Assembly: GCA_019455285.1 (NCBI GenBank)
Contig: JACFMS010000001.1
Span: 62,001-126,000 of the forward strand
Origin: Sphingomonadales bacterium
GTDB lineage: Bacteria > Pseudomonadota > Alphaproteobacteria > Sphingomonadales > Govanellaceae
Length of the DNA: 64,000 nt
Direction: 5' to 3'
The notes below the pieces were generated by a model. The model was not told the DNA's origin, did not search any database, and worked only from the letters and a program-made list of their open reading frames with translations. Of the stretch, positions 27,711-31,408 are shown piece by piece. How positions within the stretch are numbered: the first letter of the stretch is position 1; every line of letters begins with the position of its first letter. The translations under genes and the position numbers were made by a program.

Positions 27711-29855
<2,145 letters not shown>

Positions 29856-29859
29856 GGCC

Positions 29860-29931
29860 ATGGACGAATGGACGGTTTATCGCCTGGATCGCGAGGCGGG
29901 GGATAGGCTAACCAAAAATTCCCTCTCCTAG
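29860..29931 (+). pseudogene. possible interrupted gene start (23 codons) ending inside the palindrome
   Basis: Five bases after the mutase stop codon an ATG with GAGG just before it opens MDEWTVYRLDREAGDRLTK and ends at a TAG formed within the left palindrome (29929-29931). The pattern of mutase, good ribosome site and truncated ORF suggests that the repeat/DUF559 unit was inserted into a small gene between mcm and meaB. No remainder is recognisable after the DUF559 gene. It could also be chance. Confidence 0.35.
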
Positions 29932-30028
29932 CAGGAGAGGGTTAGGGTGAGGTAGATTTGTACAACCCGCAGGCTCTACCTCACCCGGTTGCTTACGCAA
30001 CCTCCCTCTCCTGCTAGGAGAGGGAATT
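29917..30028. repeat. nested inverted-repeat structure in front of the DUF559 gene
   Basis: A 25-bp unit at 29917-29941 recurs as an exact reverse complement at 30004-30028. Each unit is itself a hairpin, with arms CCCTCTCCT and AGGAGAGGG around three bases and AATT on the outer side. Inside them GGGTGAGGTAGA (29945-29956) and its complement TCTACCTCACCC (29975-29986) form a second dyad. The whole 112-bp segment can fold into one long cruciform. It ends 11 bases before the DUF559 start codon, next to its ribosome site. Confidence 0.85.
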
Positions 30029-30039
30029 AAAGGTGAGAC

Positions 30040-30393
30040 ATGAAGCCATCGCCCATTAAACCTGTTGCTCGGCGGTTGCGCCGTGATTCTACGGATGTGG
30101 AGAAGAAGCTTTGGCAACGGTTGCGCAATCGTCAGCTTGAGGGATTCAAGTTTCGTCGCCAATGGCCCATAGGCCCTTATGTCCCCGACTTTGTGTGCTT
30201 CGAGGCGCGGTTGATTATCGAACTGGATGGCGGACAGCATACAGCGGAAAACGATACGGCTCGCACGGCTATTCTCGAAAGGGCGGGGTGGCGGTTGCTT
30301 CGGTTTTGGAATAATGAGGTCTCGGAGAATATCGAGGGTGTCCTGGAGACGATCTTAAGAGCGGTTCGCTCCACACCTTTCTCCCCCGCCTAA
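30040..30393 (+). CDS. DUF559 domain protein (Vsr/PD-(D/E)XK-like endonuclease fold)
   Basis: A 117-residue protein. RRLRRDSTDVEKKLWQRLRNRQLEGFKFRRQWPIGPYVPDFVCFEARLIIELDGGQH contains the DUF559 core, with the PDF...ELDG acidic pair of a PD-(D/E)XK-type nuclease and a C-terminal helix after WRLLRFWNNEV. AAAGGTGAG precedes the ATG. It interrupts the mcm-meaB pair and lies directly behind a nested inverted repeat. The function of DUF559 proteins is not established; single-strand nicking or mismatch cleavage is inferred from the Vsr-like fold. Confidence 0.9.
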   Translation: MKPSPIKPVARRLRRDSTDVEKKLWQRLRNRQLEGFKFRRQWPIGPYVPDFVCFEARLIIELDGGQHTAENDTARTAILERAGWRLLRFWNNEVSENIEGVLETILRAVRSTPFSPA

Positions 30394-30415: not shown

Positions 30416-31408
30416 ATGACAAAACGCGCTGACGAAAGGGATGTTGGGGGGCTGGCGGCGGATGTTTTGGCCGGCAATCGGCGGGCGCTGGCCAAGGCGA
30501 TCACGCTGGTGGAATCGACCAAGCGGGAGGACCGCGCGCGGGCGCAGGCCCTGCTGGCCGAGCTGATGCCCAAAACGGGGCGCGCCATTCGCTTAGGGCT
30601 ATCCGGCGCGCCCGGCGTCGGCAAATCGACCTTTATTGAAAGCTTTGGCACCTATCTCACCGCGCAAGGTCTGAGGGTGGCGGTGTTGGCGGTGGACCCC
30701 ACCTCGGCGCGCTCCGGCGGCTCGATCCTGGGCGACAAGACACGCATGGAGGAGCTGGCCCGCGATCCATTGGCCTTCATCCGGCCCTCGCCGTCGGGCG
30801 GCACGCTTGGCGGCGTGGCGCGGCGCACCCGCGAGGCGATGCTCATCACGGAGGCGGCGGGCTATGACGTGGTCCTGGTGGAAACCGTCGGCGTCGGCCA
30901 GTCGGAAACCGCGGTCGCCGACATGGTGGACATGTTCCTCCTCCTCCTGTCGCCCGGCGGCGGCGACGAACTGCAGGGCATCAAGCGCGGCATTATGGAA
31001 CTCGCCGACCTGGTGATCGTCAACAAGGCCGACGGCGACTTGGAGGCGGCCGCCAAACGGGCGGAGGCTGAATATAAGGCGGCACTCCACCTGATGCGGC
31101 CCAAAAGCCCGCACTGGCAGCCGACCACGCTTAGGGTCTCGGCCTTAAAGCGCCTCGGCATGGATAAGGTGTGGGCCGCGGTGCAAAAGCACCAACAGGC
31201 GCTGACGATGAGCGGCGAGATAGCCGCCCGCCGCGCCGACCAGGCCCGGGCCTGGATGTGGTCGGAGATCAAAGAGCGCCTGGTGGAGGATTTTCGCAGC
31301 CAGCACCCGGAGCGCATCGCCGCCATCGAGGCCGAGGTCATCGCCGGCCGCATCGCCCCCGGCGCGGCGGCCGATCAGTTGTTGAAACTGTTCGAGCGGG
31401 AAAGCTGA
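30416..31408 (+). CDS. meaB: methylmalonyl-CoA mutase-associated GTPase MeaB
   Basis: A 330-residue G3E-type GTPase. Walker A is GAPGVGKS (64-71), then [19 protein letters not shown], the switch region [18 protein letters not shown], and NKAD for guanine specificity. MeaB loads and protects the B12 cofactor of methylmalonyl-CoA mutase. It normally sits directly after the mutase; here the DUF559 unit separates them, but transcription may continue through. The start ATG overlaps a TATCGATA-containing spacer. Confidence 0.95.

Follow-up and report, generated by a model that had tools for sequence, protein, structure and literature searches.

Enzyme genes bounded by repeats that are also dispersed through a genome are known from several systems. 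In REP/REPIN-RAYT (TnpA-REP) systems, short palindromic repeats are arranged in inverted pairs, dispersed between genes and accompanied by a flanking gene for an HUH Y1 transposase. A conserved tag (GTAG or a variant) stands beside the hairpin, repeat type and enzyme agree loosely, and some genomes contain orphan repeats. TIRYT elements (TIRtrons) likewise comprise an enzyme gene flanked by inverted repeats of dispersed families, but encode tyrosine transposases (PMC3733652). The system described here, which we followed from a 64-kb stretch of DNA (the window), has the layout of REP/RAYT and a different enzyme: DUF559 is a predicted Vsr/EDxHD-like PD-(D/E)XK hydrolase, and instead of the GTAG tag we found GGGTGAGG, GGATGAGG, GGGTGGGG or similar tracts, that is, a mirror third strand that matches the stem. 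Since we tested for an HUH-Y1 enzyme and a GTAG-type tag and found neither, the system is an analogue of REP/RAYT and not a member. It does share the REPtron feature of an enzyme gene flanked by repeats that are also dispersed in the genome.

The repeats of the window match another described group, the BoxC/PIT/'TM' repeats, on which Hoyne and Maher reportedly worked. In this motif a second purine tract mirrors the purine strand of the hairpin stem and can occupy its major groove; physical triplex formation (CD, NMR, footprint) was shown by Holder et al. 2015 (PMC4666352), and for the E. coli motif only. According to the main survey, neither transposase or integrase remnants nor mobility activity were ever found near these repeats, and neither DUF559 nor a nuclease is mentioned there (PMC4666352). 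The likeness lies in the hairpin, the TTA and GGGTGAGG, but while BoxC/PIT/TM repeats were described without any mobility gene, those studied here are tied to DUF559, E. coli included. Among publications mentioning DUF559 or ycjD, mostly outside subscription journals and bioRxiv, we found no link to repeats, and an earlier report is possible.

Results

Upstream of the DUF559 gene, two 25-bp arms (AATTCCCTCTCCTAGCAGGAGAGGG and CCCTCTCCTGCTAGGAGAGGGAATT) are exact inverted copies of each other, and each is itself a hairpin (Table 1). Together with their interior they span 112 bp and enclose a 12-bp dyad with 100% complementarity (GGGTGAGGTAGA at 29945-29956 and TCTACCTCACCC at 29975-29986). Sequence inspection bore out the original prediction on the arms, the dyad and the position of the gene between mcm and meaB, and the structure abuts a ribosome site as had been stated. 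One large foldable structure had also been proposed. As single-stranded DNA the element does fold strongly (-50.2 kcal/mol, where shuffles give -17.1; z = -11; none of 200 shuffles reached this value), but it is composed of two REP-like units that face each other and not of one palindrome. The original prediction had not recognised the repeat as the BoxC/PIT triplex motif described earlier, in which a third strand accompanies the hairpin. Judged by its sequence, each arm is one unit of this intrastrand-triplex motif (hairpin CCCTCTCC/GGAGAGGG plus GGGTGAGG). The pattern is found at 29920-29952, with a stem (CCCTCNCC/GGNGAGGG), a short loop, for example TTA, and the mirror third strand; it is the same motif as in PMC4666352 and as the copy between ycjD and fabI of E. 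coli. On the inner side of the arms, TTA-GGGTGAGG follows directly on the left, and an extra small hairpin intervenes on the right. Inserts like this one (GGTTGCTTACGCAACC) were found in other repeat copies of the genome.

Table 1. Features in and around the repeat pair of the window
Feature	Position	Strand	Description and basis
mcm-like methylmalonyl-CoA mutase gene, upstream neighbour	27711..29855	+	
Probable GNAT-type C-terminus relic (MDEWTVYRLDREAGDRL), ends at repeat	29860..29911	+	By eye; resembles gene upstream of meaB in G002
Left REP unit (left 25-bp arm)	29917..29941	+	Hairpin CCCTCTCC-TAGCA-GGAGAGGG, AATT outside; sequence, folding, genome count
GGGTGAGG, putative third strand of left unit	29945..29952	+	Mirror of GGAGAGGG, reverse-Hoogsteen rule, spacer TTA; motif PMC4666352
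CCTCACCC, putative third strand of right unit	29979..29986	-	Minus-strand reading
GGTTGCTTACGCAACC, accessory hairpin	29987..30002	.	In spacer of right unit, third strand to stem
Right REP unit (right 25-bp arm)	30004..30028	-	Hairpin CCCTCTCC-TGCTA-GGAGAGGG, AATT outside; sequence, folding
AAAGGTGAG, Shine-Dalgarno-like	30029..30037	+	Directly 3' of repeat; sequence inspection
DUF559 (PF04480) gene, 117 aa, single-domain Vsr/EDxHD-like PD-(D/E)XK nuclease (predicted)	30040..30393	+	
meaB, downstream neighbour	30416..31408	+	

The two units are the only purine-rich hairpins of the BoxC-like kind in the whole window, and both lie beside the DUF559 gene. Their arrangement is an atypical example of the association between DUF559 and repeats: the pair lies upstream of the gene only, its third strands face each other and no repeat follows downstream. 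Because the downstream repeat is missing, the window copy is not by itself the clean minimal mobile unit that had been predicted, although the pairing of palindrome and nuclease recurs elsewhere. A chance palindrome was ruled out by folding against shuffles, by the number of genome copies and by the hairpin excess across loci, and a known structured RNA was rejected as the window repeat gave no match in Rfam.

In the 3.3-Mb genome the hairpin core occurs in 32 copies, versus 0 for a reversed control pattern. Many copies are paired in a REPIN-like manner, with third strands facing inward or outward; the inward pairs include the window unit, L188 and L194. Purine-tract repeats, differing slightly in type, flank each of the four DUF559 genes of the genome; the case that would have spoken against the original prediction, namely that no other copies are associated with DUF559, is therefore not what the genome holds. 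A profile search for Y1/RAYT transposases (PF01797) found none in the genome. This ruled out a RAYT encoded elsewhere that serves the repeats and, together with DUF559 genes being flanked by repeats nearly everywhere, supports the proposed REP/RAYT-like logic with a different enzyme. As a separate observation, the reversed control pattern (purine arm first) gave 8-25 matches in G230, G264, G287 and G320 (family f52, genus g146) and almost none elsewhere, which suggests a different dispersed repeat family in these genomes.

DUF559 genes lie beside repeats in relatives as well, at different loci, and the pairing extends to named organisms across phyla, to Neisseria, where the repeat-associated DUF559 protein is closely homologous to the solved structure 3hrl, and to cyanobacterial and Deinococcus plasmids. 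Within a phylum-wide sample, DUF559 genes without the strict repeat core carry other repeat variants instead. Using a sequence-neutral definition of the hairpin (perfect stem, purine arm), we surveyed 137 DUF559 loci from many phyla. A purine hairpin was present within 350 bp at 115 of these loci, versus 3 of 400 random positions in the sister genome G001. Near DUF559 we counted 279 hairpins; beyond 900 bp there were 27, although the DNA scanned there was about four times as long. This is a roughly 40-fold difference in density, and shuffled flanks yielded 0-1 hairpins. Repeats were located on both sides of the gene at 77 of the 137 loci. Among nearest repeats with an orientation, the third strand pointed towards the gene in 66 of 82 on the upstream side (66:16) and in 67 of 78 on the downstream side (67:11), so DUF559 is usually bounded by an inverted pair. 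Up to 10 DUF559 copies occur per genome, and their loci differ.

Three further observations were made during this survey. In Legionella anisa (L169) the same stem and third strand are combined with a very long loop of about 40 nt, and the same repeat sequence occurs on either side of the gene in opposite orientation. Two DUF559-related genes, L032 (G019) and L042 (G013), lack triplex repeats and lie beside suf genes, directly upstream of a sufC-like gene; they form a divergent subgroup with a long N-terminal part, possibly a domesticated branch. A preference for positions inside operons was striking by eye, but both neighbours were codirectional in only 51 of 125 cases, and we do not claim it.

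The median distance of the repeats to the DUF559 domain was 58 nt upstream of its start and 26 nt downstream. Such tight placement, like the ribosome site that adjoins the window repeat, would suit local regulatory or terminator-like hairpins that control a potentially toxic nuclease, with the dispersed copies being of independent origin. We consider this highly improbable, since it leaves the dispersed copies (32 exact cores) and the genome-level co-occurrence unexplained, the repeat has no Rfam match, and earlier tests of PIT elements gave no promoter or terminator activity, as summarised by Holder et al. (PMC4666352).

This co-occurrence was evident at two scales. Among 40 relatives, at least 7 repeat cores, counted by hand, were present in 12 of the 14 genomes with convincing DUF559 and in 0 of the 26 others. 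Among 397 Pseudomonadota genomes, at least 5 cores were found in 90 of 116 genomes with DUF559 versus 25 of 281 without (Fisher p = 8e-42, relatedness ignored). Stratified by family, the common odds ratio was 31 (p = 1e-13), family strata being a partial correction for phylogeny. Conversely, 256 of the 281 genomes without DUF559 have fewer than 5 cores. This bears on whether the DUF559 gene might be a homing-endonuclease-like selfish gene that inserts in or next to existing triplex repeats as its target, and so follows the repeats without spreading them. Passive targeting of this kind predicts otherwise, unless repeat-less lineages cannot host the gene, and we regard it as unlikely, even though the gene lies between repeats at 77 of 137 loci, the protein matches the homing endonuclease I-Bth0305I in profile and fold (E 1.3e-4 and 1.6e-4), and some genomes have repeats without DUF559. 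Alleles without insert exist in the mcm-meaB gap of relatives and at L191 in G001.

Four genomes without convincing DUF559 contain 70-154 cores (G207 with 82, G092 with 70, G278 and G380). These genomes may have lost the enzyme recently, or a diverged enzyme may serve their repeats.

The third strand follows the stem, which would not be needed if sequence alone counted. GGAGAGGG is found with GGGTGAGG or GGGAGAGG, GGGGAGGG with GGGTGGGG, GGGGAAGG with GGATGGGG, GGAGAAGG with GGATGAGG, and GGGAGGGG with GGGGAGGG or GGGGTGGG. In one REPIN of the sister species G001 the pairs GGAGAGGG/GGGTGAGG and GGAGAAGG/GGATGAGG even occur together, and each stem keeps the third strand that belongs to it. The element's own stem type was among the best fits for its third strand in 182 of 224 elements (permuted mean 99, maximum 113) and uniquely best in 33 (permuted mean 6, maximum 13); relatedness among elements inflates these counts, and the paired changes are nonetheless explicit. 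A bulk comparison of mirror and direct third strands (268 versus 223 of 279 hairpins) is a weak test because the arms are G-rich, so we relied on the permutation of stem types. As a change in the stem is matched by one in the third strand, it is the triplex-forming mirror that is conserved and not one sequence. We read this as selection acting on the mirror, by which the variants would form triplexes too. Repeat type and the DUF559 tree agreed only modestly (24 changes versus a shuffled minimum of 29).

By profile search, the window protein is a full-length DUF559/PF04480 member (146.5 bits versus a gathering score of 20.6) that matched the families DUF559 and MTES_1575 only. We know of no role assigned to this very widespread family, of which a structure has been solved (3hrl). 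Across diverse members, E21, D50-F51, E61-x-D63, H67, D72 and R75 vary little or not at all, and from the fold we take the catalytic residues to be among E21, D50, E61, D63, H67 and D72. With an AlphaFold2 model (pLDDT 84), Foldseek retrieved 3hrl first, followed by I-Bth0305I (3r3p, an EDxHD homing endonuclease; E 1.6e-4) and more weakly Vsr (1cw0). Sequence profiles gave 3hrl (8e-39), 3r3p (1.3e-4) and the Vsr family model (1.4e-4). The protein models as a Vsr/EDxHD-like PD-(D/E)XK fold with conserved putative catalytic residues and is very likely a nuclease. A single-strand-type nuclease, as originally predicted, finds no support in this fold, which is not HUH. The reading as a defence-system gene was dropped, as the matches were confined to large Hhe/ProA-type proteins and were weak and terminal.

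I-Bth0305I is similar in sequence profile, fold and conserved acidic and His residues, but possesses additional DNA-binding parts and a target of great length (PMC3943268), whereas the DUF559 proteins of this study consist of the one domain and are encoded next to dispersed repeats. With the mismatch endonuclease Vsr, DUF559 shares a distant similarity in sequence and fold; however, it scored 22.1 bits with the Vsr model TIGR00632, far under the cut-off of 97.85 for that family, and is linked to repeats instead. That YcjD belongs to the PD-(D/E)XK superfamily and is linked to Vsr was noted already in 2005 (PMC1189080). The Vsr relationship would be in keeping with a DNA-repair nuclease (VSP-type or removing structured DNA) that protects genomes with break-prone triplex repeats, in which case the linkage would reflect co-selection and not mobility. 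A Caulobacter VsrA with a DUF559 domain leads to a DNA damage response in methyltransferase-less cells (PMC12907096), and TM sites are tied to instability in E. coli (PMC4666352). Yet there is no need for a repair enzyme to be encoded between inverted repeats of its own, or in many copies (up to 10 per genome) at differing loci, and this role seems to us quite improbable.

The site between mcm and meaB varies among relatives. The two genes are adjacent in G003, G004 and G009, with neither repeat nor DUF559 between them. In the window, a stretch upstream of the repeat is a probable acetyltransferase relic by its sequence. In the sister species G001, the slot contains parDE-like toxin/antitoxin genes between two REPINs; the two repeat pairs are near-identical, lie 766 bp apart and represent the sole case of two repeat pairs around a short insert in 2.4 Mb of G001. 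Read on the minus strand (L078, 3333-2498), these REPINs are about 100 bp each, and the arrangement looks like a composite cargo unit.

A fixed location, which would have argued against the original prediction, was not observed: the unit is absent in family relatives, other DUF559 loci differ, and some repeats are absent in G001. The empty-site comparison proposed at the outset gave, besides the three relatives above, one clean empty repeat site, where the repeat pair L191 (G000:C9, near 109,000) is missing in G001. L188, a repeat pair of the window type, is missing there as well. The filled L191 allele has an imperfect 17-bp direct repeat; the difference fits a target duplication and also a slippage deletion between the 17-bp direct repeats in G001. 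Most other repeat sites compared are common to both sister species (one sister genome, partly compared), so movement is slow. Both species also share the DUF559 genes at carA-carB and a further locus.

In E. coli K-12, the DUF559 gene is ycjD, located between sapF and fabI, with BoxC (GGGGAGAGGGTTAGGGTGAGGGG) between ycjD and fabI and a decayed repeat at the ycjD 3' end. We found ycjD in 3365 of 5426 complete E. coli genomes. The ycjD-negative genomes examined have the eef operon at that place, where it is also reported in PMC12817139. The absence of ycjD was therefore rejected as an empty site and represents an exchange with the eef operon. In the PF04480 search our E. coli control gave no match, though ycjD of MG1655 is annotated as DUF559; the strain or the search may miss it.

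Discussion

We observed that DUF559 genes and triplex-forming REPs (BoxC/PIT/TM) are physically linked, that the repeats are arranged in inverted orientation around the gene, that the two co-occur across genomes, that third strands covary with stems, that the active site is conserved and that repeat sites differ between sister species. On this basis DUF559 and the repeats almost certainly form one partnership. By analogy, this is probably a selfish or domesticated repeat-nuclease system that resembles RAYT in its logic and employs an unrelated nuclease. That the nuclease mobilises the repeats we judge somewhat more probable than the contrary: the association is strong, and cleavage, binding and transposition are predicted. 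Against this reading of the system stand repeat-rich genomes without DUF559 (82 cores in G207, 70 in G092), DUF559-related genes without repeats (L032, L042), the many sites common to both sister species, the atypical window unit and the modest agreement of repeat type with the DUF559 tree. DUF559 is nevertheless the first good candidate for an enzyme that spreads the long-orphaned BoxC/PIT repeats.

If the partnership is mobile, a repeat on an exposed single strand would fold into a hairpin with its third strand, and the small Vsr/EDxHD-like enzyme would recognise this fold by its shape and nick or cut at the fold or next to it. When the break is repaired, the repeat, or a repeat pair with its content (DUF559 or cargo), could be copied into other intergenic sites; alternatively, an empty allele might be converted. 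The other repeats in a genome would be non-autonomous and depend on the enzyme acting in trans. In the window, a third-strand-inward pair lies upstream of the enzyme gene; in the slot of G001, two pairs of this kind enclose another insert. Tentatively, and with rather less confidence than in mobilisation as such, we propose a new class of mobile DNA, in which a lone Vsr/EDxHD-type PD-(D/E)XK nuclease reads triplex shape and, by cutting, may copy the repeats, its own gene and bracketed cargo without known transposase chemistry.

Linking DUF559 and BoxC/PIT repeats gives each of them a testable explanation, E. coli K-12 (ycjD, BoxC) included, and with both present in K-12 a simple laboratory test is possible. 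If true, REP-like systems would have more than one origin, with enzymes that are unrelated, and the partnership would point to a protein able to recognise a DNA triplex.
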